Positions 5,377 to 30,572 of a stretch of DNA of 38,521 bases are shown here, piece after piece. Position numbers and translations under genes: made by a program. Position 1 is the stretch's first letter; each line of letters opens with the position of its first letter. The notes beneath the pieces were generated by a model. It searched no databases, was not told where the DNA came from, and worked only from the letters and a program-made list of their open reading frames with translations. This DNA comes from a bacterium. Its GTDB lineage: Bacteria > Patescibacteriota > Minisyncoccia > UBA6257 > JAGOQP01. The DNA lies in contig JAJYXK010000012.1 of assembly GCA_021801825.1 (NCBI GenBank), positions 1 to 38,521 on the forward strand. Direction: 5' to 3'.

Positions 5377-6444
5377 CTAGTTTGTTGGTCGTTCCAGTAG
5401 TGTTGCTACTAGTTTTATTTCCTTTCCGTTGCGAAGTACTAACATTTCTACCTCAGTATCCCCACAAGAATCTTCTAGGAAATCTTCAAGCGTATAACGT
5501 TCATTAAGAGAAGTTCCATTCATAGAAATAATAATGTCGTTCTCTCGCAACCCTGCTTGATCGGCGGGGCTTTTAGGTATAATTGCTGGTTGATGCGGAG
5601 AGGGACTGGTGACTAAGATGCCTTGTCTACTTGGAAGAGAAAGCCCCAGCGCAATAGTGGGAGTAATAACGACATGTCGCACACCTAAAAACGCCCGTCT
5701 GATTTTCCCAAATTTTTTTATATCTTCTAAATCATTCTTTATAGCGTTAATAGGAACTGCAAATCCAATATTTTCTGCCTTTGATACATTAGCTGAGTTG
5801 ATTCCAATAACTTCACCGTTGCTATTAATGAGTGGGCCGCCAGAATTTCCTGGATTAATAGCGGCGTCAGTTTGAATAAGATCGTGAAGCATTTCTTTTC
5901 TGTCTTCATTATGAGCTTCAATAGTTCTTCCCAGACCCGAAATAATGCCGCGCGAAATAGTGTCAGGAAATACCCCCAACACATCTCCGATGGCGTATAC
6001 GGTCTGTCCTAATTTTATGGAAGTAGAATCTCCAAAGGGAAGCGTGGTAAATGTTTTTTCTGTCCGTATGCGTAAATAAGCCACATCGTGAATGGGATCA
6101 GTATCAATAAGTTGTGCTTGATGTATGGTACCATCGTGCAAAGTAACTTCATATTCAAAAGAGCTGGTCTTAATAACGTGAATATTGGTAATAACAATAC
6201 CCGTAGTATCAACGATAAATCCAGAACCCCCTCCACAGTCTAATGCCTCCTCGTCATTTTGATTGGGGTAGGATTTTATTTTTGTTGCGTCTCTTTCAAA
6301 CACAGGAAACCCTTGCGTAATTTTTTTGGTTCGCTTTGGGTCGGTGGTGTCAGTGGTATGGTTAGTTTTTTTTGAGATGCTGATAGAAACAACAGCCGGA
6401 AGGGATTGCTCTATTACTTCAACACGCTTTTCTTCTTCAGTCAT
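5377..6444 (-). CDS. HtrA/DegP-type serine protease with one PDZ domain, no membrane anchor
   Basis: 355 aa, trypsin-like S1C family. The catalytic triad is visible as His89 (TNIHVI), Asp120 (DPIHDVAYL) and Ser201 (GNSGGPL). A single PDZ domain covers roughly residues 255-345, with SPADQAGLRENDIIISMNG as its core. HtrA proteins normally degrade or chaperone misfolded proteins outside the cytoplasm, attached by an N-terminal helix or exported by a signal peptide. This protein starts MTEEEKRVEVIEQSLPAVVS with neither, and an in-frame stop lies a short way upstream, so a longer start is excluded. It may act inside the cell, or the export route is unusual. The usual AIGNPLG loop reads AIGDVLG. 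It belongs to a minus-strand group with the membrane proteins upstream. Confidence 0.9.
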   Translation of the reverse strand: MTEEEKRVEVIEQSLPAVVSISISKKTNHTTDTTDPKRTKKITQGFPVFERDATKIKSYPNQNDEEALDCGGGSGFIVDTTGIVITNIHVIKTSSFEYEVTLHDGTIHQAQLIDTDPIHDVAYLRIRTEKTFTTLPFGDSTSIKLGQTVYAIGDVLGVFPDTISRGIISGLGRTIEAHNEDRKEMLHDLIQTDAAINPGNSGGPLINSNGEVIGINSANVSKAENIGFAVPINAIKNDLEDIKKFGKIRRAFLGVRHVVITPTIALGLSLPSRQGILVTSPSPHQPAIIPKSPADQAGLRENDIIISMNGTSLNERYTLEDFLEDSCGDTEVEMLVLRNGKEIKLVATLLERPTN

Positions 6445-11408: not shown

Positions 11409-12110
11409 ATGATAGAAATAAAAAATATAACAAAGATATATCAAACAGGAGTGGTGAATTTTGAGGCGCTAAAAGGAGTTAGTTTTGATATTCAAGACGG
11501 AGAATTTGTTGCTATTATGGGACCCTCTGGTTCGGGAAAATCCACCTTAATGCATATATTAGGAGCATTAGATACTCCCACAAGTGGAACATATTTTCTT
11601 GATAAAAAGGACGTATCTGTTCTAAGTGAAAATGAGCTTGCTGATATTCGCAGAGATAAAATAGGTTTTGTGTTCCAATCATTCAATCTATTACCTCGCG
11701 CAACGGTGTTGCGGAATGTAATTTTGCCATTGGTATATGAAGGTGTAGGGAAAGAAGAGCGAGCAAAAAAAGCCCAAGCGGCGCTTGTCTCGGCTGGGCT
11801 TGATGAAAAATATTTTCCGCACCTCTCCAACCAACTTTCAGGAGGGCAAATACAAAGAGTTGCTATCGCGCGAGCATTAGTAAATAATCCATCGTTGATT
11901 TTAGCCGATGAGCCAACGGGGAACCTAGATTCAAAGACGGGAGAGATCGTATTGGGAACATTCCAAAAATTAAACAAAGAACAGGGGAAAACTATAGTAT
12001 TAATCACTCATGAGCCAGATATCGCACAACATGCAGATAGAATCATTTTTATTAAAGATGGATTTTTAGTGAGCGATTCAAGGGGTCACAAAAAGAGAGT
12101 CATACAATAA
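11409..12110 (+). CDS. ABC transporter ATP-binding protein, MacB/LolD type
   Basis: 233 aa, normal for the LolD/MacB ATPase family. Walker A is GPSGSGKST at residues 38-46. The Q-loop is [18 protein letters not shown], typical of this subfamily, the signature is LSGGQIQR, and Walker B is [12 protein letters not shown]. The switch histidine is in LITHEPDIA. It powers the permease encoded 5 bp downstream, with the HlyD-type adaptor encoded upstream. Such systems export peptides, lipids or toxic compounds by a mechanical cycle across the membrane. The substrate cannot be told from sequence. Confidence 0.94.
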
Positions 12111-19790: not shown

Positions 19791-19865
19791 GGTGGCTATA
19801 GTTTAGTGGTAAAACTCCAGTTTGTGGCACTGGTGTCGAGGGTTCAATTCCCTCTAGCCACCCCA
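19791..19865 (+). tRNA. tRNA-His (anticodon GUG), integration site of the mobile element
   Basis: The extra 5' G (19791) pairs with C73, the hallmark of tRNA-His. Acceptor GTGGCTA pairs with TAGCCAC, the anticodon stem CCAGT/ACTGG carries loop TTGTGGC, and the T-arm is GAGGGTTCAATTCCCTC. An encoded CCA follows (19863-19865), unlike the other tRNAs here. Its last two bases lie beyond the repeated core, so they come from the element. The integrase gene on the other strand ends inside this tRNA (stop at 19856-19854). Confidence 0.95.
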
Positions 19866-21455
19866 AGAGAGAATAAGTTGAGCGAAAAGTTCATTTCGTT
19901 TTGATTTATCAATAGTTTTGTCTAGTTCCAACCGTTTATATTCCGCTTCTAGTGCTGGATATGCTTTTTCTATTGGAACAAACCATTCGTTGTGTATTAT
20001 GTGGACTTCTTTATCTTTTACCGAAAAGTTCTGACCGAGGGCTGAGAATATCTCTCGTTTTTTATCAAGACCCCCAGTAATAAATTCTTTACGGGCATAA
20101 CAGGCAAAGTTGAATGTCTTTTCAGTAAGTTCAAGCCATTTCTCAGCTCGGCTCTCTGTGTCTCGTAAATTTGTTTTTAGTTTTGTAATCTTTGCCTTAA
20201 GCGCATCTCCTTCTTTAATAAATGTTTCATCATCGATAAGTTCTCGGTAACGCATTTTAGTAAGAGTATCGAGTTCTTTCTGTGTTTCGGCGAGTGATTT
20301 ATGTTGTGTCTCATATATTTTTGTCCGTTCTTCAATTTCTTTATCATTGTGTCTGTTAAGTATTTCAAGAGCCCATTCTTGAAACTTTGGTAGTATGGTA
20401 TGTCGTTCAAGTTCAATATCAATTTGATTCTCAAGTTCCTGTAGAGTTATTGGGTTTCTCTGATTACACACAGTACCTTTTTTTCTTCTGGTACACTGAT
20501 AATATACGTAAGTTTTTAATTCTCCTGTGCTTTTTATTATTTTTGTTTTTTCACACGCCGTATACATTGAACCACACACCTCACATCGCATTAGTCCTGT
20601 ATAAGCAAACTCGTGTGTCTTTGCTCGTGGTTTACCGCTTCTCCCTAAAATAACCTGAACTCGGTCATATTCTTCCAAGGTAACCATTGGTGTGTGATTT
20701 CCTTGATATATTTTACCAGACCATTCAAACATACCAGCATAGAAGATATTGATAAACATTTTATAAATAACACTATTGGCAATTTCAACATCTCCTTTTC
20801 GTTTTGTTTTTGATGTGCGGAAGCCCCACTCTCTATTTGCAATTTCTCGTATTTGTGGAGGGGTATAATTTCCAGTGAGCATCATATTCCACATTTTTCT
20901 AACTAGATGAAAACGCTCTGGGTCTTCGATAATAGTGTGCTCAAGTTTATCGTTCTTGTATCCTAAGGGGGCACGAGAGGGAAGCCACCCTCGTTCTGCC
21001 TTTCCCTCCATTCCTCTTCTACTATTTTTACGAAGGTCTATAATAAATTGATTTGCTACTCCGCTTTCAATGTTAAAAAGTAGAACATTATCATCGGGGA
21101 GATATTGACGGTCTATTGTTTGTATACATTGTAAAATACCTTGCTGAAGCATCCAGCTTATTGTTCCACTATCAATTGGATTTCGTGAGAGACGATTTAT
21201 TTGCCAACAAAGGATACCTTGAGCTTCTCCTTTCTCAATTCGTGAAAGCATACTGGTAAAGACAGAGCGACAATTTGGTTTTTTTGCAGTCTTTGCTTCG
21301 GTGAGTGTTTCTTTTATTGAAATACCAAGATTATTTGCTAACTCTTTTAGGCGGTTTACTTGGTCCTCAATAGATTGGACTTGTCTGTCCTCACTTTCCG
21401 ATGATTTACGAGCATAGAGAAAATATGTGATTTTATTTTTATCAATATTATTCAT
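19854..21455 (-). CDS. Large serine recombinase (integrase)
   Basis: 533 aa. The N-terminal resolvase domain (about residues 9-160) carries the catalytic serine in YARKSSESEDRQ (Ser18) and the conserved LCWQINRLSRNP. A recombinase domain follows (about residues 165-275, GYKNDKLEHTIIEDPE and VIYKMFINIFYAGMFEWSGK). A zinc ribbon lies near residues 300-345 (CEVCGSMYTACEK ... YYQCTRRKKGTVC), then a long coiled coil (about 360-460). Such enzymes join attP and attB with a short core. The frame ends LSWGG-stop, and the stop plus last codons are tRNA-His sequence. In the rejoined circle it would instead continue VVEEVRTIFERRNDTT and beyond (27 extra residues). A structured RNA region lies directly upstream. 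Confidence 0.93.
   Translation of the reverse strand: MNNIDKNKITYFLYARKSSESEDRQVQSIEDQVNRLKELANNLGISIKETLTEAKTAKKPNCRSVFTSMLSRIEKGEAQGILCWQINRLSRNPIDSGTISWMLQQGILQCIQTIDRQYLPDDNVLLFNIESGVANQFIIDLRKNSRRGMEGKAERGWLPSRAPLGYKNDKLEHTIIEDPERFHLVRKMWNMMLTGNYTPPQIREIANREWGFRTSKTKRKGDVEIANSVIYKMFINIFYAGMFEWSGKIYQGNHTPMVTLEEYDRVQVILGRSGKPRAKTHEFAYTGLMRCEVCGSMYTACEKTKIIKSTGELKTYVYYQCTRRKKGTVCNQRNPITLQELENQIDIELERHTILPKFQEWALEILNRHNDKEIEERTKIYETQHKSLAETQKELDTLTKMRYRELIDDETFIKEGDALKAKITKLKTNLRDTESRAEKWLELTEKTFNFACYARKEFITGGLDKKREIFSALGQNFSVKDKEVHIIHNEWFVPIEKAYPALEAEYKRLELDKTIDKSKRNELFAQLILSWGG
19857..19863 (+). repeat. attL core
   Basis: GCCACCC lies within the 3' acceptor strand of tRNA-His and recurs at 30383-30389. 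To its left is the tRNA, to its right the integrase gene. A 7-bp repeat alone is weak, but here it is backed by the integrase, the tRNA target and the frame and terminator arguments given for the element. Confidence 0.65.
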
Positions 21456-21481
21456 AAATAGGTTTTGGAGCCCAATAACTT

Positions 21482-21629
21482 AAAAACCCGAAAGGGACGC
21501 TCTGGTTGACCCAGCTATGATGCAATCACGAGGATTGAGCAAAACAGTTGGCAGAACGCCCCTTTCGGGCTCCGTTTTCTCAATAAAAATACCTCGTATT
21601 TTTATGCATCTAAAAACTACTGGGTCAAC
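21482..21629 (-). ncRNA. Candidate structured RNA or attenuator leader upstream of the integrase
   Basis: On the minus strand a perfect TATAAT is followed 7 nt later by GTTGACCCAG, which pairs with CTGGGTCAAC (21514-21505) about 105 nt downstream. Nested inside are GATGCA/TGCATC, a 10-bp hairpin ATAAAAATAC/GTATTTTTAT, the helix ATTGAGAAAAC with GTTTTGCTCAAT, and a CCC-GAAA-GGG tetraloop hairpin. A second 19-nt pairing (21486-21504 with 21552-21570, mismatches mostly G-U type) would make a pseudoknot or an alternative fold, and it ends CCCTTTCGGGTTTTT like a terminator. No coding sequence fits. It matches no class I know. It could be a free RNA or a switch controlling the integrase, whose ATG is 26 nt beyond. 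Confidence 0.55.
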
Positions 21630-21635
21630 ATAGGT

Positions 21636-21644
21636 ATTATACCA
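21636..21644 (-). promoter_or_regulatory. Extended -10 promoter for the structured RNA and integrase
   Basis: TGGTATAAT on the minus strand overlaps the stop codon of the zinc-ribbon gene. The expected start, about 21629, is exactly the first base of the first pairing strand of the RNA. No strong -35 is seen (TCAACT at 17 nt). Confidence 0.6.
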
Positions 21645-22245
21645 TATTTTTTTGTTCAAGTTGAGTGTAATGTTCATAACTTTTACCTGCCTGTTTATAT
21701 AATTTTTCAAGTTGTTTCTGCTTTCGTGTTGATTTGTTTTTGTAATATGGGTGTTTTACCTGTTCTTGGAGTTTCTCAATTTTTTGCTCAAGCGTGAGTA
21801 CGTTGAATAACGAAAACATCTTGTGTCTACGATTGGTTTTTTGTGAGCTATAAGTAAGGTTGTAACAATGACGACAGGCAAAATAATCTCCATCTTTATA
21901 AAGAGTTCCTACCCGTTTGCCACAATACACATTATTTTTATACCACGGGCAAATGAACCAATATCGTTTTCCACCATATCGGCAAGAAGTAGTCGTGAGG
22001 GGTATTTTATAATCAAAATCTTTCTTTTCATCTGTATCTTGGTCTGTTTGTGTGTAGTGAATACGAAGATAATTATCTCCCTCAAGAGTTGACACCTCGA
22101 CACCAACACTGCTTTTATATTCATCACCTAACATACCACCTTTAGTCCAAGTGATTATTCCAGATTTCCATCCTTGAAAATATCCATTTTGTCTCAAAAA
22201 TGTTGTAGATATTCTCTTTGTATTGTCTGCTTCGTTTTTGCTCAT
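21637..22245 (-). CDS. Zinc-ribbon protein of unknown function
   Basis: 202 aa from the ATG at 22245 (MSKNEADNTKRIS). An earlier in-frame start at 22383 would translate a repetitive leader and is rejected. The centre holds a zinc ribbon: ICPWYKNNVYCGKRVGTLY and YFACRHCYNLTYSSQ, four or more cysteines in two clusters, with aromatic flanks. The C-terminal third is lysine- and glutamine-rich coiled helix (LEQKIEKLQEQVKH). I have a general memory of this CRHCYNLTY pattern in unnamed proteins of mobile DNA, but no function is known to me. It lies upstream of the integrase on the same strand. Confidence 0.75.
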   Translation of the reverse strand: MSKNEADNTKRISTTFLRQNGYFQGWKSGIITWTKGGMLGDEYKSSVGVEVSTLEGDNYLRIHYTQTDQDTDEKKDFDYKIPLTTTSCRYGGKRYWFICPWYKNNVYCGKRVGTLYKDGDYFACRHCYNLTYSSQKTNRRHKMFSLFNVLTLEQKIEKLQEQVKHPYYKNKSTRKQKQLEKLYKQAGKSYEHYTQLEQKNMV

Positions 22246-22308
22246 AATTTTGCCGAAATCATTTGAGATTATATTGATATTCTTTCGTGGAAAATCGTGG
22301 ATTGATTG

Positions 22309-22373
22309 CCATAATTTTCCATAATTCCCATAATTTCCTATAGTTCTTAATATCCACCATTTTCCACCATTTC
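22309..22373. repeat. Short direct repeats upstream of the zinc-ribbon gene
   Basis: Three near copies of CCATAATTTTC/CCATAATTCC lie at 22309-22338 and two of CCACCATTTTC at 22353-22373. On the coding strand of the gene they read as GGAAATTATGG-type units in its leader. They look like iterons or repeated operator sites. Confidence 0.5.
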
Positions 22374-22443
22374 TAAAAGACAATATTTTCGTTTTTATAT
22401 TCTCTATCTCTTTAGAGGCATTACTGCTTTATAGAATTCATCA

Positions 22444-22517
22444 CCATATAGATAACTTTTACTTTATAGGAAATATTGAGTATCTATATTGTTAACTATA
22501 TATAGTTACCTATATGG
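22444..22517. repeat. AT-rich palindromic spacer
   Basis: TAACTATATATAGTTA (22493-22508) is a perfect 16-bp palindrome. Outer arms CCATATAG (22444-22451) and CTATATGG (22510-22517) are inverted repeats around the whole spacer. With the repeats at 22309-22373 it makes the 22246-22509 gap unusually structured. No gene is seen in the gap. Confidence 0.55.
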
Positions 22518-22833
22518 ATATATCTCCTTCAATTCCATATTTCTTTTTGTAATGTTCTTGTGATTTGTTTTTATATTCCGACATAATCTTGTTTTCTAGT
22601 TTTGCCCATAGTTCTTTGTCAGGAACAAAAAAGATGGGATGCCACTTGAATCCTCCTTGATAGGAGGGTGGCATCAGCCATAATTTATCCCCACGAGTGT
22701 CGGTAAATTCAGAGCTTCGAATTCTAAAACCTTTCACTAGAAAATCCCCAAATTCGAGGCTAATAATTGCCTTTAATTTTCCTTCATCAACTATCTTCAC
22801 TTTTACGATAATTTCATCAATTTTTAGTTTCAT
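22510..22833 (-). CDS. SpoVG-like regulatory protein
   Basis: 107 aa from the ATG at 22833 (MKLKIDEIIVKVKIVDEGKL). An upstream start at 22905 would add an Arg-rich, unlikely leader that overlaps the previous gene. The pattern GKLKAIISLEFGDFLVKGFR, LWLMPPSYQ and WHPIFFVPDKELWAKLENKI follows the SpoVG fold (G-x-hydrophobic-A-x-I-x-hydrophobic, V-x-x-hydrophobic-x-I, MPS, F-x-DIAHPI). SpoVG proteins bind nucleic acids and regulate gene expression. It lies in the minus-strand operon of the element and may regulate element genes. The stop overlaps the outer arm of the palindromic spacer. Confidence 0.65.
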   Translation of the reverse strand: MKLKIDEIIVKVKIVDEGKLKAIISLEFGDFLVKGFRIRSSEFTDTRGDKLWLMPPSYQGGFKWHPIFFVPDKELWAKLENKIMSEYKNKSQEHYKKKYGIEGDISI

Positions 22834-22885
22834 AGTAATTTTATATGCTTTACCTCTAAAAACCCCCACACGGGACGATTTTGTT

Positions 22886-23125
22886 CTATTTCTGGTTGTC
22901 CTCACGGCTCTTTTTTATGGTGTCCGAAATTCTAATAAGGTCTTTTATAATGTCTTTCTTTTCTGTAATATCGTAGTCATCTTCGGGGACCAGTTTATTA
23001 AACCATCGACTTATCGTTTGTCTGTTAAATCCTTGTTCCTGTATTGCTTTTACAAAACAGATATAAAAGCTGTGATGGGGATATCTTTTTACCGCATTGT
23101 TAAATCTTCTTTGGAGTGATTTCAT
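22886..23125 (-). CDS. Small HTH-like protein
   Basis: 79 aa from the ATG at 23125 (MKSLQRRFNNAVKRYPHHSF). The longer TTG start at 23164 overlaps the preceding gene and is less likely. The middle (AIQEQGFNRQTISRWFNKLV) looks like a helix-turn-helix, and the C-terminus is acidic then basic. It may bind DNA. It sits 28 nt after the next small gene, in a row of small minus-strand genes of the element. No family name known to me. Confidence 0.65.
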   Translation of the reverse strand: MKSLQRRFNNAVKRYPHHSFYICFVKAIQEQGFNRQTISRWFNKLVPEDDYDITEKKDIIKDLIRISDTIKKSREDNQK

Positions 23126-23153
23126 ATTTATAAGGTTAAGTTTTGTTAAGTTT

Positions 23154-23378
23154 TTAACGGTCAATTTCTTTAAGGTGTTTCTGTAATAATGGAAGCGTGT
23201 CCGCGCGATGTTTTTGAATTTGTTTATACTCTTTCTCGGTCATTGGCTTATAGACGACAGACATCAATCGTAAAAGCTTGATGCCTTTTTCATAGGCATC
23301 TTGCTGGTTGATTTCTTTTCCAAGCTCGTTTTTATAGAGGGCTTGAAATTTCTTAATGTCTTCATCTGACAGAACCAT
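23154..23378 (-). CDS. Tiny helical protein, first of two related copies
   Basis: 74 aa, all helical by eye. FQALYKNELGKEINQQDAYE followed by KGIKLLRLM has the same layout as FRKMFKEQYGVEYSDKEAWE with NLLGFF in the 67-aa protein at 29307, so both belong to one small family. I recall similar proteins in CPR genomes but no function. The ATG is 2 bp after the stop of the DUF5659-like gene, so the two are translationally coupled. Confidence 0.75.
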   Translation of the reverse strand: MVLSDEDIKKFQALYKNELGKEINQQDAYEKGIKLLRLMSVVYKPMTEKEYKQIQKHRADTLPLLQKHLKEIDR

Positions 23379-23380
23379 AG

Positions 23381-23680
23381 TTAGTCGGAATAAAGCTTGT
23401 TTTTAAGAGCTTTGAGGTGGTCAAAGAACGACCTTGCTTTAACTTCCAATCTATCCGAAAAATAGAGGTTTGCTATATCTTCAATACCCCTCTCTTTTTT
23501 GAAGACAAAAAGAGCTTTTCGTACATTTTCCTTGTCTACTGATAAAAGCTCAAAGCCCACACATAAAAGTGCGGTTGATACTCCGAGGTCATAAGTTGTA
23601 AATACAACTGATGGGTCATCAAGTGGAATATATTTCCATTCCTCGTCTGTTGATGACTTCTTTGTTTTCTTGTTTGTCAT
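23381..23680 (-). CDS. DUF5659-like protein
   Basis: 99 aa from the ATG at 23680 (MTNKKTKKSSTDEEWKYIPL). The frame extends up to 23746, but that part overlaps the promoter and operator. DLGVSTALLCVGFELLSVDK, then KALFVFKKERG, YFSDRLEVKARSFFDHLKAL and a Lys-rich end fit the DUF5659 pattern as I remember it (a small alpha/beta domain starting with D-L and ending F-x-x-L-x-x-LKN). Function unknown. It is the first gene of a minus-strand operon of four small genes (also 23154, 22886, 22510), behind a promoter with an inverted-repeat operator. Confidence 0.7.
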   Translation of the reverse strand: MTNKKTKKSSTDEEWKYIPLDDPSVVFTTYDLGVSTALLCVGFELLSVDKENVRKALFVFKKERGIEDIANLYFSDRLEVKARSFFDHLKALKNKLYSD

Positions 23681-23710
23681 AGTAATTATTGTTAATAAAT
23701 AATGTGAGAA

Positions 23711-23753
23711 ATTTTTCACTCTCACATATATAGGGTGAAAAATCACTAGACAA
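23711..23753 (-). promoter_or_regulatory. Promoter with overlapping inverted-repeat operator
   Basis: On the minus strand TTGTCT (23753-23748) and TATATG (23730-23725) are separated by 17 nt. A perfect 9-bp inverted repeat ATTTTTCAC/GTGAAAAAT (23711-23719, 23735-23743; spacer 15) straddles the -10 box. A repressor there would block the operon of small genes. Confidence 0.6.
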
Positions 23754-23754
23754 A

Positions 23755-23785
23755 AAATAAACCCATTTTTTTGGGGTTGTTGTTT
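23755..23785 (-). terminator. Terminator of the 586-aa gene
   Basis: On the minus strand ACCCC, A7, TGGGTTTATTTTTTG forms a short stem with a T-rich tail, about 40 nt after the stop of the 586-aa gene. Confidence 0.5.
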
Positions 23786-23822
23786 AATATTTTCTCTTTT
23801 TGTATTCTTGGTGATTACACTA

Positions 23823-25583
23823 TTATTCCTCCTGTTTGTGTCTCTCCGTTGTTTCTTCTAGGTAATCTTCTATACCGAATTTATCATTTTTCTCTTCGTT
23901 AATTTGTGGGGGAATGAGGGCTATTTTTAGTTTGTAGGTCTTAGTTTCTGAAAAATCATAGAATGGTTCAGTGTCATTTTTGAAAAGTTTTTTTAAGAAA
24001 TCAGAAATCTGTCTCTTGATTTGCTTGATGTTGTCTGGTATTGGACTAGGGATTGATTTAGTTTCGCCATTATTTTTTGCCATTTCAAGTAAAAAAATCC
24101 ACGCAAGATTTGGTCTATTGTTTTTTTCGTTTGAAAATCCAAGCCCGCCATAATTAGCAGTAACAATTTTTTTGTTATTTTGTATTAAGACGTTCTGTTC
24201 ATCTAGAAATCGTAGGGTTACATCTTTCCACTGAGTTGGTTGAAAGTGTGGCAGATGTACGGTTTTTTTCCCCTTAATTACACTACTTTCCTCGTTTTTT
24301 AGGGCAATCTTTTCAAGTCCTTTTTCTAAACCGTCAATTTCCATTTTTCCTCCAACAATCTGAATTTTTTGTATTTTCTCGTTCTCTTTTTCTGGTTTCT
24401 GATTCATCTCTTTCTTCATTGAATGTTGTTCTTTATATTTTGCAATTCTTACAAAAAGTTCATTGTTTTTCTCTTTAATTTTTTCAAGATTTTTTCTATC
24501 TGGCAAGGAGGTTTCCGTAATTCTTCCTAGAAAGTCATATAAGCCAACAAATAATTCGGCTATAGTTGGTTTGTGTGTTTGTTCTCCGAAAACACTATCA
24601 AAAATTCCATTTTCTATCTGATTATTATCTTGTATTTCAAACTCACAACCAATCATACTGCGAAAAGGTTTTTTGTATACATCTTTTAATCCACCGCATC
24701 CGTTACTATTTATTAGTCCTTCGACAATAGATATTATTTCAAAATATATTTCATTGATTTCATCATCTTGTGCGTCTTTATTCTCAAAATAAAACTTTGT
24801 TAATTTTATAAGTTCGTTCCAGTAAATATACAATTCATCTATTTTTTTTGGTAAAATTGAATATGAATTCTGATGAGTGTCTATATAATCATTGCCGTCT
24901 TTATCCATCCAATCCATTGAATTTACGCTTTTTTCGTCAGAATATCCTTCCCACAAAATGCCATTTTGTATAAAAAGATTATCGTATTCTAAATAACTGT
25001 TAAATTTATTGACGGTTTCTTGGGCAAGTTTCTTGTCTCCTTTATACATTAGGGGATGACAAGCCTCTTCAATAATCTTGAATAATATCCTTTTATAACT
25101 CTTATCCTTATACGAAGCGAGTTCCAATAGCACCGAATAAACCATTCTCCATTTTGTATTTGGATACTCAATGAGCCTTTCATTAACCCCGTTTTCTTTA
25201 AGAAAATCAACTAACTCTGGTCCAGAACCCAAGTTTCCAATTATTTGGGCGATAAGTTCTAGCGTCTTTGGTTTAATTCCTAACCGATTTTTATTTGGTA
25301 AGACCGAATCTTCTTTTTCTTCACTTGCAATAAGCTCGACCCACGCCCCAAAGCCATCTTTACTAAAGGAAACGTTCTTAATATACCTGTCTTCTTCAAG
25401 TTTTTTTATAATTAGTTTCTGTTCTCCTCTTGAAATTAAGACGGGTCCTTCCTCATATTCAGTGACGGTATACAATTGGATGTATACGGACCCTTTGGGA
25501 CTAATTTGAGTCTTTTCACTAATTTGATTTTTTACGTATTCAATTTTTTCTTTTGGTGTCATCTTAGTGTAATTGTAATTCAC
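23823..25583 (-). CDS. 586-aa protein of unknown function
   Basis: The longest frame starts at a GTG (25583). An ATG seven codons later (25562, MTPKEKIEYVKNQ) is an equally good start. No signal or membrane helix. The N-terminal 100 residues are a mixed alpha/beta domain (GSVYIQLYTVTEYEEGPVLI, GEQKLIIKKLEEDRYIKNVS). A helical middle contains acidic patches, a coiled-coil Lys/Glu-rich linker lies near residues 370-420, and the C-terminal domain is (HFQPTQWKDVTLRFLDEQNV, TANYGGLGFSNEKNNRPNLAW). The last part could be a small winged-helix-like fold, but this is a guess. It lies between the controller protein gene and the small-gene operon. Possibly element-specific, with no recognised family. 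Confidence 0.75.
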   Translation of the reverse strand: MNYNYTKMTPKEKIEYVKNQISEKTQISPKGSVYIQLYTVTEYEEGPVLISRGEQKLIIKKLEEDRYIKNVSFSKDGFGAWVELIASEEKEDSVLPNKNRLGIKPKTLELIAQIIGNLGSGPELVDFLKENGVNERLIEYPNTKWRMVYSVLLELASYKDKSYKRILFKIIEEACHPLMYKGDKKLAQETVNKFNSYLEYDNLFIQNGILWEGYSDEKSVNSMDWMDKDGNDYIDTHQNSYSILPKKIDELYIYWNELIKLTKFYFENKDAQDDEINEIYFEIISIVEGLINSNGCGGLKDVYKKPFRSMIGCEFEIQDNNQIENGIFDSVFGEQTHKPTIAELFVGLYDFLGRITETSLPDRKNLEKIKEKNNELFVRIAKYKEQHSMKKEMNQKPEKENEKIQKIQIVGGKMEIDGLEKGLEKIALKNEESSVIKGKKTVHLPHFQPTQWKDVTLRFLDEQNVLIQNNKKIVTANYGGLGFSNEKNNRPNLAWIFLLEMAKNNGETKSIPSPIPDNIKQIKRQISDFLKKLFKNDTEPFYDFSETKTYKLKIALIPPQINEEKNDKFGIEDYLEETTERHKQEE

Positions 25584-25621
25584 TCTGAATTCTACTCTGT
25601 TTTAATGTTTTTTCAAATATA

Positions 25622-25648
25622 AAAAACGGAGCATTAACGCCCCGTTTT
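25622..25648 (-). terminator. Terminator of the controller-protein gene
   Basis: On the minus strand AAAACGGGGC, GTTAAT, GCTCCGTTTTTT forms a 10-bp stem (one G-U) with a T run, 16 nt after the stop of the controller gene. Confidence 0.8.
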
Positions 25649-25663
25649 ACTAAGAATAAAATA

Positions 25664-25885
25664 TTAAAATTTGAACAAATCATCCAATTCTACACCAAGA
25701 GCTTTTGCTAATTTCTCTATGTTCTTAAGTGCAATGTTTCTTTCTCCACGTTCTATTCCTCCTATATAAGTTCGGTCCAATCCAGCCTTAAAAGATAGCT
25801 TCATCTGTGAAGTTATACCTCTTTGAATTCGGAGTTTTTTAACTTTATTACCAAATCTCTTAAGAATGTCGCTTTCTTTAGCCAT
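25664..25885 (-). CDS. XRE-family controller (C) protein of the R-M system
   Basis: 73 aa from the ATG at 25885 (MAKESDILKRFGNKVKKLRI). A TTG two codons earlier is possible. It is a single HTH domain: QMKLSFKAGLDRTYIGGIER with GERNIALKNIEKLAKALGVE, matching the short controller proteins of R-M systems (usually 75-80 aa) and their DRTYIxxIERG core. C proteins bind paired C-boxes and time the expression of the nuclease after the methylase. It is divergent from the nuclease-methylase gene, and the 112-bp spacer holds a C-box-like inverted repeat (25924-25979). A terminator follows. Confidence 0.85.
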   Translation of the reverse strand: MAKESDILKRFGNKVKKLRIQRGITSQMKLSFKAGLDRTYIGGIERGERNIALKNIEKLAKALGVELDDLFKF

Positions 25886-25923
25886 ACCCAAAATATAGGT
25901 CTTATGATGACCATAAGGCGACG

Positions 25924-25979
25924 GACTATAAGTATCACATACTTTGTGCTATATTTGATGTCATTAGATACTTATAGTC
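25924..25979. promoter_or_regulatory. C-box-like operator between controller and R-M genes
   Basis: A perfect 13-bp inverted repeat, GACTATAAGTATC (25924-25936) and GATACTTATAGTC (25967-25979), spacer 30 nt, contains ACTATAAGT/ACTTATAGT, close to the known C-box motif. A smaller repeat CTTATG/CATAAG (25901-25917) lies closer to the controller start. Both divergent promoters must lie here. TTGTGC (25945-25950) with GATACT 17 nt further is a possible plus-strand pair. Confidence 0.7.
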
Positions 25980-25997
25980 ATCTTAGTAAATATCTTT

Positions 25998-27938
25998 ATG
26001 ACCAATAAAATTGTTTGCTATATTCGTGGTGTTGAAATTGTTGAAACACCAGAAGAAAAAGTTAGACAGGAATATGTTCGTCGTCTCGTTGAAGAATATG
26101 GTTATCCAAAGGAACTTATTGATGTTGAGGTCCCAATTCAACTTGGGAGAGATGAAAGCAAAAGAGCTGATATTGTTGTTTATCGTTCAAAGCAAGATAG
26201 AGAAAGGCGGGAAAATCATAATATTATTGTTGAGTGTAAAGAACCAGATGTTAAATATCCAGATGGAGAAAAACAACTTAGAAGTTACACAAACTCTACA
26301 ACTGCTCAAATTGGCGTATGGACAAATGGTATAGAATTCAGATATTGGAAACGGTTAAAAGAACCAGACCGTTATGATGAAAAAGGATATTTACCAAAAT
26401 ATGGGCAGGAATATGGCGATAAAAAGATACTTAAGAAAGAACTCCGTCCATCAAGTAATTTACAGGCAACCTTTAAGCGTATTCACGACAATATTTATGC
26501 TAACTATAAATCTGGAAACAAAACAAAAGTGTTCTATCAAGTTATCTATCTCCTATTCGCTAAAATCCAAGATGAAAAGAGTTATGAGCCAGAATGTAGA
26601 TTTATTATATATGACCGAGAATGGGATGAAATAAGAGATAAAGGAATCAGTAAGACATTTGAAAAAAGAATTTCCGATTTATTTGAACAGGCAAAAAATC
26701 GAAAGGAGTTTGAAGATATTTTTGATGGCTCGGAAAAAATAGAGATACCAATAAGACAAGTTGCCAATGTTATCAGTGAATTTGAAAACATTACTATTTT
26801 GAATACTGATGTTAAAGGTGAAGCGTTTCAGGCATTTATTAGTGGGCAATTTAGGGGTGATGCTGGGCAATTCTTTACCCCGGACCCAATTAAGGCGTTA
26901 GTCGTGGCAATGTTAGAGCCAGAACCAGATGAGGTGGTATTAGACCCCGCTTGTGGCTCGTCTGGATTTTTGGTTTTTACTATTAACCATTACCGAAATT
27001 GGGTTAAAAAACAAAAAGGATGGATAGATGAAAAGGATAATGTTCTTGACGATACTGATTTAACCCCAGACCAGCGAGAGATTTTAAGAGGCAAAATTAA
27101 AGAATATGCGGGTGTTCATATCAAAGGAATTGATTTTGACAATGACCTCACTAAAGTTGCAAAAATGTATATGGTTATGGTTGATGATGGTCATACTAAT
27201 ATTTGGACATCTAATTCTTTAATTCCATTTGACGAGCTTACTAAAAATACTAGAGGCACAATTACCTATGAGGGTATAGATATCATAATGACCAATCCGC
27301 CGTTCGGCTCAAAAGGAAAAGTTGAAGACCCGAACATTCTTTCTGGATATGATTTTGGTTTTGCCTGGAGAAAAGACAAAAAAACTGGTGAGTTTGATAA
27401 GGAAAAATTATTAGCTGGTAAAAGAGGCGGAGGACAAGTACCAGACATCCTTTTTATTGAGCGTTGTTTATCTCTACTAAAAAAGGGAGGACGAATGGGT
27501 ATAGTTCTTCCAGACGGAGATTTAACTAACCAGAATACTGAATTTGTAAGAGCCTGGCTCAAAGATAAAGCTCAAATTGTGGCGGTAATTAGTTTGCCAC
27601 AGGAAACATTTGTACCATTTGGAGCTGGTGTAAAATCAAGCGTCTTATTTTTGAAAAAACCAAAGAGCAAATCACCAGAACGTTATCCAATCTTCTTTGC
27701 TAGTTTGGAAAAAATTGGCTACGACATAAAAGGTAGAAAAACCTATAAACGGAATGGAAATGGGGAAGTGGTTGATTGTGATGGGCGCTCAATTGATTAT
27801 CTTACTGACCGCAAAGGTAATAAAACAAAACAAGACCCAGCTTTAATTGAAATGACGGGTGCTTTAGATACTAATGTTCCAGATGTACTTAGTGAATGGA
27901 TTAAATTTAGGAAAGAATTTAAGAGCTATCTATGGTAG
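25998..27938 (+). CDS. Nuclease-methylase fusion of a restriction-modification system
   Basis: 646 aa. Residues 15-120 form the type I R-subunit N-terminal nuclease domain (HSDR_N type): Asp58 (RADIVVY) and Glu79-x-Lys81 (IIVECKEP) are the PD-(D/E)XK residues, followed by KQLRSYTN. From about residue 240 comes an N6-adenine methylase: FRGDAGQFFTPDPI, motif I DPACGSSGFL (316-325), motif IV NPPFG (433-437), and GGQVPDILFIERCL typical of HsdM. No helicase motor is present. The form recalls type IIB/IIG enzymes such as BcgI, where a nuclease-methylase chain works with a separate S subunit. The specificity gene overlaps its end by 7 nt. The controller protein is divergent. It starts at ATG 25998 next to the C-box. 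Confidence 0.92.
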   Translation: MTNKIVCYIRGVEIVETPEEKVRQEYVRRLVEEYGYPKELIDVEVPIQLGRDESKRADIVVYRSKQDRERRENHNIIVECKEPDVKYPDGEKQLRSYTNSTTAQIGVWTNGIEFRYWKRLKEPDRYDEKGYLPKYGQEYGDKKILKKELRPSSNLQATFKRIHDNIYANYKSGNKTKVFYQVIYLLFAKIQDEKSYEPECRFIIYDREWDEIRDKGISKTFEKRISDLFEQAKNRKEFEDIFDGSEKIEIPIRQVANVISEFENITILNTDVKGEAFQAFISGQFRGDAGQFFTPDPIKALVVAMLEPEPDEVVLDPACGSSGFLVFTINHYRNWVKKQKGWIDEKDNVLDDTDLTPDQREILRGKIKEYAGVHIKGIDFDNDLTKVAKMYMVMVDDGHTNIWTSNSLIPFDELTKNTRGTITYEGIDIIMTNPPFGSKGKVEDPNILSGYDFGFAWRKDKKTGEFDKEKLLAGKRGGGQVPDILFIERCLSLLKKGGRMGIVLPDGDLTNQNTEFVRAWLKDKAQIVAVISLPQETFVPFGAGVKSSVLFLKKPKSKSPERYPIFFASLEKIGYDIKGRKTYKRNGNGEVVDCDGRSIDYLTDRKGNKTKQDPALIEMTGALDTNVPDVLSEWIKFRKEFKSYLW

Positions 27939-29272
27939 AAAAACAAACGAAACAAAATATTTTTTGGCTTTGGAGCGATGTAATTGATTTTCAAAAAAGA
28001 GGAGATGTTGCATATTGGTTGTCTGAATACTTTTTGCCCGCAACTGCGCGTCTGACTAATAAACTGTCTGACGTTGCAAGGTTATCTGATTTGAAATTTA
28101 ACCCAAACAGAAATCAAAACGATAGATTTTTTTATATTGATATTTCCAACATCAATACCTCTGACGGGTCTTACGAAAAGACAGAAATAAAAAATGCTTA
28201 TGCTCCTTTAAGAGCGAGGAAGAAACTCGAGCGATTTGATGTTATAGTTTCAATGGTAAGACCAAATAGAAATGCAACATCCATAATTTTAGAGAATACC
28301 AATGATTTAGTTTGCTCAACTGGTTTTGCGGTTCTAAAAGCAATAAAAATAAATCCATATTACCTTTTTATTTTTACGAAGACATCATATTTTATAGACC
28401 AGTTAGTGCGTCAAACTTCAGCAACTATGTATCCAGCTGTTAATGAGAATGATGTTTTGGGAGTCAGATTTTCTATTCCTTCTGAAAAAGAACAGCAAAA
28501 AGTTGAGCGAATTGTCCAAGAGGTATTTCAGCTCAAAAAGGAAGCAGAAGCCGACTATCAAAAATTACAACGATTACTCAATGAAGCCTTTGGGTTAACT
28601 AGCAACGAAATAAAACAAAAACTTACTTTTTGGCGGTGGAATGATGAGGTTGATATTGTTTCAAGAATTGACCCAGATTATTACATAAAAGGTTATATGC
28701 AATTAGCTATAACAAAATCAATTAAATTAGAACCACTATCAAAATTTATTCTTAGTTATTCTGGCGGATACACATTTGAGACGGAAAAATATCTTTCAGA
28801 TGGTATACCAATAATAAGAATTAAGGACTTGAATTATCCCGAAATTAAAAAACCAGAGGATGCCTTTTTTGCCGATTTACCAGAGCTGCAACGTTTTATG
28901 GCAAAACCAGACGATATTTTAATTTCTATGTCTGGAACCATTGGTTTATCCGCCATAGTTCCTAAAGAACTTTCAAGGTGTTATATCAACCAAAGAATAA
29001 CAGCTATTACCACAAAAGGAATAAATAAATTTTATCTCTTGGCATTCTTGAACTCATCTTTTTATAGAAATGAACTAGAAAAAATTGGCACAGGTGGTGT
29101 CCAAACGAATGTTTCCTATAAACAGATTATTTCTTTATCTATACCAAGATTGGGAAATAAGGAAGAAATAATAGGAAACCTCTTAAAAGGGTTTATAGAA
29201 AAAAATAAAGAAAGCAATAAAAAACTCCAAGAAGCAAAAGAATTTGTTGAAAATCTAATATTCAAAGAATGA
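27932..29272 (+). CDS. Specificity (S) subunit of the R-M system
   Basis: 446 aa with the duplicated layout of HsdS. Target-recognition domain 1 covers about residues 30-190, followed by a helical spacer (EKEQQKVERIVQEVFQLKKE). Domain 2 covers about 225-410 (LEPLSKFILSYSGGYTFETE, GIPIIRIKDLNYPEIKKPED), followed by a second helix (NKESNKKLQEAKEFVENLIF). The two domains read two half-sites of an asymmetric or bipartite target. IISLSIPRLGNKEE and VLGVRFSIPSEKEQ are matching repeat boundaries. The ATG lies inside the last codons of the nuclease-methylase gene, so translation is coupled. The target is not predictable by eye. Confidence 0.9.
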   Translation: MVEKQTKQNIFWLWSDVIDFQKRGDVAYWLSEYFLPATARLTNKLSDVARLSDLKFNPNRNQNDRFFYIDISNINTSDGSYEKTEIKNAYAPLRARKKLERFDVIVSMVRPNRNATSIILENTNDLVCSTGFAVLKAIKINPYYLFIFTKTSYFIDQLVRQTSATMYPAVNENDVLGVRFSIPSEKEQQKVERIVQEVFQLKKEAEADYQKLQRLLNEAFGLTSNEIKQKLTFWRWNDEVDIVSRIDPDYYIKGYMQLAITKSIKLEPLSKFILSYSGGYTFETEKYLSDGIPIIRIKDLNYPEIKKPEDAFFADLPELQRFMAKPDDILISMSGTIGLSAIVPKELSRCYINQRITAITTKGINKFYLLAFLNSSFYRNELEKIGTGGVQTNVSYKQIISLSIPRLGNKEEIIGNLLKGFIEKNKESNKKLQEAKEFVENLIFKE

Positions 29273-29306
29273 GTTATAAAAGTTAGATGCCATAGCCTAA
29301 AACACA

Positions 29307-29510
29307 ATGGTTAACATAAACTTAGAAACGGTTGCGGAATTCAGAAAGATGTTCAAAGAGCAATATGGAGTTGAGTACTCAGATAAAGAAGCGTGGGAAG
29401 CCACCCACAATCTTCTTGGTTTTTTTGACCTTCTTCTTGAAATGGACAGAGAACAACATCCAGAAAATTATAGAAATAGAAAAGACAAGAGTGGAAATGT
29501 GATAGAATAA
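29307..29510 (+). CDS. Tiny helical protein, second of two related copies
   Basis: 67 aa. Shares its layout with the 74-aa protein at 23154: F-x-x-(L/M)-(Y/F)-K-x-x-x-G-x-E, then a D/K-A-x-E segment and LL. FFDLLLEMDREQHPENYRNR is a charged helix. It follows the S subunit by 34 bp and precedes the RNase H gene by 4 bp, so it is part of this plus-strand run. Function unknown. Confidence 0.75.
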   Translation: MVNINLETVAEFRKMFKEQYGVEYSDKEAWEATHNLLGFFDLLLEMDREQHPENYRNRKDKSGNVIE

Positions 29511-29514
29511 GAAT

Positions 29515-30312
29515 ATGGAAGATTGTCTGGTTATATACACAGATGGTTCTTCTGCCCCAAATCCCAGAAAAGGAGGAGTCGGTTTTCGAATCATCTTTCC
29601 AGATGGGAAATGCAAAGATTTTTCGCCATTCGGATATTTAGGTGCAACGAGCAATGAGATGGAATTACAAGCTTGTATCCTTGCATTAAGAGAAGTTTTA
29701 AGAATTAAGGACATAGAAGGCATAAACGGAATAGTGGTGTATACAGATTCACAGTATGTCGTCAGTTATTATAAAACTGCACTATTCACGTGGTCTAACC
29801 CGTGGTCTAAAAAGAAATGGTTGCGTAGCAACGGAGAACCTGTATTGAATGTACCGCAATGGAAAGAACTCTTACGTCTAATGCGTCGAATATGGGATAC
29901 TTTTCACGCATCTGTTTCGTTTGAAAAAGTTGAAGCACATTCTGGGATACAAGATAATGAGGTGGTTGATAAACTTGCAAAACATTCTCGCAGAGGACCC
30001 TCTTCTATACAGAAAATATCAGTTGGTATTGTACGAAGAAGTAAGACAACCAAAAAGACTGTTAGGGGGAGTATCTGCGGGAAGGGACAGCGTATCCGTA
30101 TTCGAGTTGTTAGTGCAAACTGGTTAAGTGTTCAGAAACTTTACCGCTTACGGTGTGAAGTTCTTTCAAAAAAGAGTGAATATTTTGGTAATATGGATTT
30201 TATCTTGTCTGAATATATGATGAGAGCGGGTCATATATATGATGTTATTCTAATGGATGGGCTAGACTATTGTCGCGCAAAGAAAGTACTTAAGGAAATT
30301 AAACTGAATTAG
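29515..30312 (+). CDS. RNase HI with a 100-residue C-terminal extension
   Basis: 265 aa. Residues 1-157 are an RNase HI fold with all catalytic residues: Asp10 (YTDGSS), Glu50 (NEMEL), Asp78 (YTDSQYV), His142 (AHSG) and Asp152 (NEVVDKLAKH). It cuts the RNA strand of RNA-DNA hybrids. The extra part (about 165-265) starts basic (VRRSKTTKKTVRGSICGKGQ) and ends with a compact alpha/beta region (VVSANWLSVQKLYRLRCEVL, SEYMMRAGHIYDVIL). I recognise no known hybrid-binding domain in it, and those are usually N-terminal. The gene is last in the element. Location next to the right end suggests cargo or a replication or maintenance role. Confidence 0.85.
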   Translation: MEDCLVIYTDGSSAPNPRKGGVGFRIIFPDGKCKDFSPFGYLGATSNEMELQACILALREVLRIKDIEGINGIVVYTDSQYVVSYYKTALFTWSNPWSKKKWLRSNGEPVLNVPQWKELLRLMRRIWDTFHASVSFEKVEAHSGIQDNEVVDKLAKHSRRGPSSIQKISVGIVRRSKTTKKTVRGSICGKGQRIRIRVVSANWLSVQKLYRLRCEVLSKKSEYFGNMDFILSEYMMRAGHIYDVILMDGLDYCRAKKVLKEIKLN

Positions 30313-30382
30313 AGCAGATACTTGGTATATAAATTGTTGTATCATTCCTTCTCTCAAATATAGTTCTCACTTCCTCTACTAC

Positions 30383-30389
30383 GCCACCC
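30383..30389 (+). repeat. attR core
   Basis: GCCACCC again, in the context CTACTACGCCACCCAGATAT. The inner side (30313-30382) reads as the missing integrase tail on the minus strand. The outer side leads straight into a terminator, as expected behind tRNA-His before integration. Confidence 0.6.
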
Positions 30390-30429: not shown

Positions 30430-30572
30430 TGGCTAAGCGAGCAAACTGTTTTGCTCGCGTGAGGAATTGAACGCCGGAGCATGTGCGAATAGCAATGAGC
30501 ACAGCGAGGGGGCGGTTAGACCATTCATCTGCAGATGAATGAGTCGGAACCAAGTCCCGTCGCTCACCCCAT
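30430..30572 (+). other. Hairpin-rich, tRNA-like non-coding stretch
   Basis: No gene. It starts with a perfect 9-bp hairpin GCGAGCAAA/TTTGCTCGC (30437-30458). Then GTGAG (30459-30463) could pair with CTCAC (30562-30566) to close a cloverleaf-like set: TGTGC/GCACA, the perfect 20-nt palindrome CATTCATCTGCAGATGAATG (30522-30541), and a GTCGGAACCAAGTCCCGTC arm. The end CCCGTCGCTCACCCCA looks like a tRNA 3' end and is followed at once by a terminator. But the anticodon and T loops are not canonical, so it is either a decayed tRNA or an unknown RNA. Confidence 0.4.

Follow-up and report, generated by a model that had tools for sequence, protein, structure and literature searches.

Integration into a tRNA-His gene appears to exchange the C-terminus of a large serine integrase in a Patescibacteria mobile element

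The contig JAJYXK010000012.1 (38,521 nucleotides, all of which were analyzed and are referred to here as the window) belongs to a 654-kb genome and carries an element of about 10.5 kb (19864..30382) integrated in a tRNA gene, inside which the element's own large serine integrase (LSR) gene ends. The target gene, tRNA-His(gtg), was identified by ARAGORN and Rfam at 19792..19865 on the plus strand, and the integrase gene occupies 19854..21455 on the minus strand, encoding 533 amino acids in its integrated form. The protein has the domain order of an LSR, with PF00239 (Resolvase catalytic) at residues 12-156, PF07508 (Recombinase) at 180-270 and PF13408 (zinc-ribbon) at 285-345; it matches phrog_95 up to residue 494, and the fold of the family LSR matches those of the SPbeta, Bxb1 and phiC31 integrases. 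As had been noticed in an original prediction made from the sequence alone, the final integrase codons TGG GGT GGC (19865-19857) and the TAG stop (19856-19854) lie antisense inside tRNA-His, so that the integrated protein ends with the residues WGG, in chromosomal sequence.

A 7-bp core, GCCACCC, is present at 19857-19863 (attL), inside both tRNA-His and the integrase open reading frame (ORF), and is repeated identically at 30383-30389 (attR). When the two cores are joined as in an excised circle, the integrase frame is extended by 27 codons, reading VVEEVRTIFERRNDTTIYIPSICSNSV*, in agreement with the original prediction; the predicted circle-junction sequence is TTGGGGTGGCGTAGTAGAGG. In the window this C-terminal tail is encoded on the minus strand at 30302..30382, followed by a TAA stop at 30299..30301, and is in frame with the integrase only when the cores are joined. 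The tail had been assigned to an otherwise empty stretch (30313-30382), which is not wholly correct: the coding sequence overlaps by 11 bp the end of a convergent RNase H gene (29515..30312, plus strand; PF00075). The in-frame join had also been offered as support for the attachment sites, but a 27-codon open frame in this element has a chance of about 0.21, so that the join by itself is not significant and the comparative data must carry the case.

The circle's attachment site, attP, would consist of the core flanked by two arms, of which the left (P; 19864..19913, minus strand) encodes the end of the integrase and the right (P') is the first ~25 bp of the tail-coding stretch. In most members of the family the left arm forms an inverted repeat within the integrase coding sequence. 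Mean folding energy of the left arm was -10.98, compared with -6.73 for shuffled sequences (73 of 87 lower), with a synonymous-codon z of -1.41, and pairing in the repeat is preserved although the inner stem varies.

An empty site was located in a genome of another genus of the same family (G006:C5), where tRNA-His ends ...TAGCCACCCAGAATAG and is followed directly by the homolog of the window's right flank, GTGGCTAAGCGAGCAAACTG. This site matches the window's left flank joined to position 30383 onward, through GCCACCCAGA, as the original prediction had expected of a relative lacking the element, and the sequences of attL, attR and the empty attB are consistent with attP x attB recombination by the predicted integrase. 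None of the same-genus genomes offered an empty site that could be used (the gene downstream in G002 sits ~5 kb away from another tRNA-His, and no tRNA is present on the G001 contig). Because the empty site, CCACCCAGA, has no encoded CCA, the CCA encoded by the window tRNA-His (19863-19865) was completed by the element; none of the remaining six window tRNAs encodes CCA. The antisense of this CCA is a near-invariant tryptophan codon (TGG) of the integrase, in frame at 60 of 87 distinct attL sites, and all 60 TGG boundaries are in the integrase frame. Beyond attR, at 30435-30523 and about 30550-30571, the window contains a ~50-90 bp repeat, several copies of which occur in the same genome and in related genomes, followed by a stretch resembling a tRNA-His 3' end (CAAGTCCCGTCGCTCACCCC, close to that of G002), perhaps the trace of an older insertion at the same tRNA.

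Homologs of the integrase, sharing ~35-83% identity, occur throughout the order, class and phylum, and also in other phyla. Single-protein pattern scans of genome contigs and viral contigs returned no relatives; these were detected with a 16-member alignment, and the relatives examined were mostly from Patescibacteria metagenome-assembled genomes. At the loci examined, the ends of 85 out of 119 distinct LSR ORFs fall within an opposite-strand tRNA gene, with 12 isotypes represented (His 28, Ser 12, Asn 12, Trp 7, Gln 7, Asp 6, Pro 5, Gly 3, Tyr 2, Glu 1, Leu 1 and Arg 1), and some of 23 other LSR ORF ends resemble tRNAs that ARAGORN overlooked. The family is widespread among bacterial mobile elements; it is common in Patescibacteria and extends to other phyla. 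Most of the integrated integrase genes are still open and intact, and all but one of the integrated ORFs continue for 2-37 codons past the tRNA end; since these ends vary in both frame and length, they look unconstrained. A tblastn search of phage and plasmid collections at 1e-30 gave no match, and hence no complete circular sequence carrying the long form.

The far ends of the related elements were searched using DNA criteria only, requiring a core match of at least 5 bp upstream of each integrase and a GACGTTAGAAC-like motif 17-20 bp beyond it. Core repeats alone, which range from 4 to 9 bp, were insufficient to detect attR, and it was the P' motif that made detection possible. Sites were found at 28 among 97 loci, and 27 of the 28 place the tail in the integrase frame, a frame agreement that is not fully independent between relatives because both arms have fixed spacing. 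Most tails share the consensus V-x-(D/E)-(D/E)-VRT-...-(Y/F)-IP-(D/N/S)-(L/F), and the first seven tail codons coincide with the P' motif, which is conserved. The original prediction named homologs without any related tail, or a non-matching empty site, as evidence against it, and on both counts the comparison came out in its favor. A hidden Markov model (HMM) of 25 tail proteins was also scanned over ~2 Mb on both strands; at loci outside the training set it identified 14 further sites, all 14 on the integrase strand, with the best core match in frame at 10.

Past the attachment arm, from tail codon 8 onward, the ratio of nonsynonymous to synonymous differences (pN/pS) was 0.39 in the integrase frame as compared with 1.07 and 1.53 in the other two frames. 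Differences in eight independent pairs were distributed over codon positions 1, 2 and 3 as 43, 29 and 72 (chi-square p=4e-5). VRT is preserved while arginine codons interchange (AGA, CGA, CGC), and in the YW group the tails have a constant length of 29 residues. On this codon-level evidence the tail beyond the arm is evolving as protein, in the frame of the integrase.

Several LSR genes have the tail attached. In four Bacteroidota loci (L141, L143, L161 and L169, the last being a complete chromosome, CP075895) the integrase ORF continues into the tail and no tRNA is present. In a Patescibacteria contig (L186) an upstream integrase at 858-2588 reads into TVNNVRTIFERQNGYIYIPDLRNYAHA; a second element follows, the integrase of which has WLRR as its end. 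The same tandem arrangement is found at L106, bringing to six the LSRs with an intact tail. These two arrangements indicate that tandem integration restores a full-length gene using the tail of the neighbor. The exchange of C-termini and the two integrase forms proposed in the original prediction are therefore supported by the same-frame tails of relatives, by selection at the protein level, by these native tailed ORFs and by the empty site, but the suggestion that the long form would exist only on the free circle does not hold, since long forms also occur in tandem arrays and in Bacteroidota chromosomes.

Two or more serial tail/P' sites were observed at some loci (L066, 457-546 and 3292-3381 on the minus strand; L186, 2505 and 3585; L115; L141, 3994; L157). 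At L141 a second tail lies 660 bp beyond the integrase, and some loci with serial sites have no second integrase, which suggests stacked or non-autonomous elements that may share one attachment site. At L143 (~6167-6190) and L169 (~11566-11589) a 24-bp near-perfect palindrome, TCAACGATGGTGCGCCATCGTTGA, occupies the would-be core within an intact integrase gene.

The family protein alignment comprised native long ORFs and integrated forms only, and a structural model was built from the native long ORF of L143. The AlphaFold model (559 aa; mean predicted local distance difference test, pLDDT, 84.9) has a predicted template modeling score (pTM) of 0.55, at which the relative placement of its domains is unreliable. 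It contains a single helix (516-544) that spans the join, near W530, and is followed by coil containing the YIP motif. The solved LSRs (SPbeta, Bxb1 and phiC31) align to model residue 490-498 at most, and residues ~495-559 had no structural counterpart among the top Foldseek chains. Because both the known structures and phrog_95 end before the join, what is exchanged is an additional segment at the C-terminus, and the canonical LSR stays intact. The integrated short form would keep the catalytic, recombinase, zinc-ribbon and coiled-coil domains and lose the second half of the extra C-terminal helix.

Taking the observed anatomy, the empty site and the selection on the tail together, we favor a reading, to which we assign a probability of roughly 0.6, in which attP lies within the 3' end of the element's own serine integrase gene and the state of that gene sets the enzyme that is made. 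On the free circle the gene would be whole and would encode a long enzyme with a conserved tail of ~25-30 residues, and this long form would be the one at work in recombination between attP and the tRNA 3' end. Integration would cut the gene at the core, leaving the tail stranded behind attR, and the integrated copy would make a shorter enzyme whose last residues, a few to ~40 in number, are read from antisense tRNA. The tail may promote or license integration, and its loss may commit the element to the integrated state by weakening re-integration while leaving a scaffold that could still be converted to excision. Both forms are probably produced. The argument for a role in the free state is that an unbroken attP is needed for the tail to be translated as part of the integrase, and yet the tail is under selection, which implies that the long form matters in that state, where the task is integration.

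Several points weigh against this reading. The 28 attR partners are a minority of the 97 loci, partly owing to contig ends and to elements longer than the DNA examined. The selection test was limited to groups that align gap-free, and some of the tails were located by protein pattern. In some cases the tail is short or has no YIP motif (L073, L190, the first hit of L140, and L079). Retention of the stranded tail at attR might be due in part to its attachment-arm DNA, which offers no explanation for codons 8 onward. Finally, the functional difference between the long and short forms is one that we infer.

The resemblance among tails might be conservation of attachment-arm DNA and nothing else, with attP merely overlapping the end of the gene and the downstream frame having no role. 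The coincidence of tail codons 1-7 with the P' motif and the chance of ~0.21 for a single open frame would fit such a view, but the codon-pattern selection past the arm, with its frame controls, the constant 29-residue tails of the YW group and the native intact ORFs make it highly improbable. Alternatively, the tail could be a degradation signal that shortens the life of the free-form integrase; the nearest phage logic, mycobacteriophage integration-dependent immunity, does use a C-terminal ssrA-like tag that is lost on integration (PMC9262239). We consider this very unlikely, as conservation is concentrated in VRT and YIP and not in a terminal AA, and an ssrA-like tag as the identity of the tail was not supported, the tmRNA (transfer-messenger RNA) tag of the window genome being AKPMAFAFA whereas the tail ends SICSNSV.

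If the tail were essential for all activity, integration would disable the integrase and freeze the element until another copy or a tandem neighbor supplied the long enzyme, making this a serine counterpart of the suicidal integrases. In its favor, the tail is under selection even though it can act only once joined to the integrase, tandem arrays do regain a full-length gene through the neighbor's tail, and related elements are common enough that help in trans is plausible. We nevertheless regard this as rather unlikely, given that known LSR structures and phrog_95 align only to about residue 494 of the protein concerned, before the join, that all canonical domains survive, and that integrated genes are mostly open and intact. 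Another possibility is that the tail blocks excision and the short form alone is excision-proficient, so that the state of the gene replaces or lowers the need for a directionality factor. The join sits in an accessory helix with the remainder of the enzyme complete, and other LSRs set directionality through the coiled coil and zinc domain (PMC5814800, PMC10754689); but in no structure does the tail lie against the coiled coil, and an unregulated excising form would destabilize integration, leaving this explanation doubtful. It is also tempting to speculate that the gene is a state sensor, in which a circle-made long form integrates and a chromosome-made short form excises, the product of recombination resetting the direction of the enzyme, and in which tandem elements could swap tails and control one another; we hold this only tentatively.

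The concept of such an exchange was anticipated by McMurdie 2011 (PMC3146451) for DsiB, a CcrB-like serine recombinase of Dehalococcoides ssrA genomic islands. In every case the DsiB gene runs antisense into the 3' end of an RNA gene, where it overlaps attL, and has its stop codon outside the island. Full function of DsiB, it was suggested, may require the circle or a neighboring island that supplies the 3' fragment; its C-terminal part was reported as divergent, with no conserved tail or selection on a tail shown (PMC3146451). The window integrase likewise overlaps attL with its 3' end in an RNA gene. It differs in that the DsiB target is tmRNA while the present family uses tRNAs of many isotypes, and DsiB belongs, by name, to a different clade, the present enzymes matching the CcrB and XisF models far below their cut-offs. 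Neither DsiA, RecF, ParB nor the Mom module was found among the ORFs of the window element in Pfam, PHROGs and NCBIfam scans, and the target is tRNA-His rather than ssrA.

The nearest mechanism, by analogy, appears to be that of the archaeal suicidal tyrosine integrases (SSV1, pTN3, pT26-2), which are split at attP and were called exclusively archaeal in a 2021 review (PMC8371274). In both cases attP is within an integrase gene that is interrupted on integration, and related elements can resupply activity. The archaeal enzymes are of the tyrosine type, however, whereas the window integrase has serine recombinase domains only, and the archaeal split parts an N-terminal portion from the catalytic portion while here only an accessory C-terminal end is lost. 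In the integration-dependent immunity of mycobacteriophage BPs, attP is in a coding gene, the target is a tRNA gene and integration alters a protein C-terminus (PMC9262239), which thereby senses the integration state in a similar manner, but there it is the repressor that is altered, the integrase being tyrosine-type, and integration removes an ssrA-like degradation tag, unlike the tail described here. The SPbeta integrase SprA/YokA (PDB 9y66, 9dxh, 9dxd) shares the LSR fold over ~460 residues, with alignments ending at model residue 492-494 and the extra helix and tail unmatched. A search of open-access text gave no description of the conserved tail or of this tRNA-targeting LSR group, and the conserved tail, the tRNA-wide scope and the selection evidence appear to be new in the literature searched.

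Self-disrupting integrases have been held to be exclusively archaeal and of the tyrosine type (PMC8371274); a bacterial serine family does something similar, removing only an accessory tail. How LSRs set their direction is an old question that can be put to a direct test by comparing the two forms in which this enzyme naturally occurs. LSRs also serve as genome-engineering tools, and in this family an integrase gene annotated in its integrated state has an incorrect C-terminus, so that cloning such a gene as annotated loses a conserved segment.

The remainder of the element includes a 586-aa ORF at 23823-25583 (minus strand) with no match in Pfam, PHROGs, PADLOC, NCBIfam or PDB sequences. Window 25998-29272 encodes a fusion of an HSDR_N domain with an N6 methylase and, after it, a type I specificity subunit, and from its domain content is predicted to be restriction-modification cargo.

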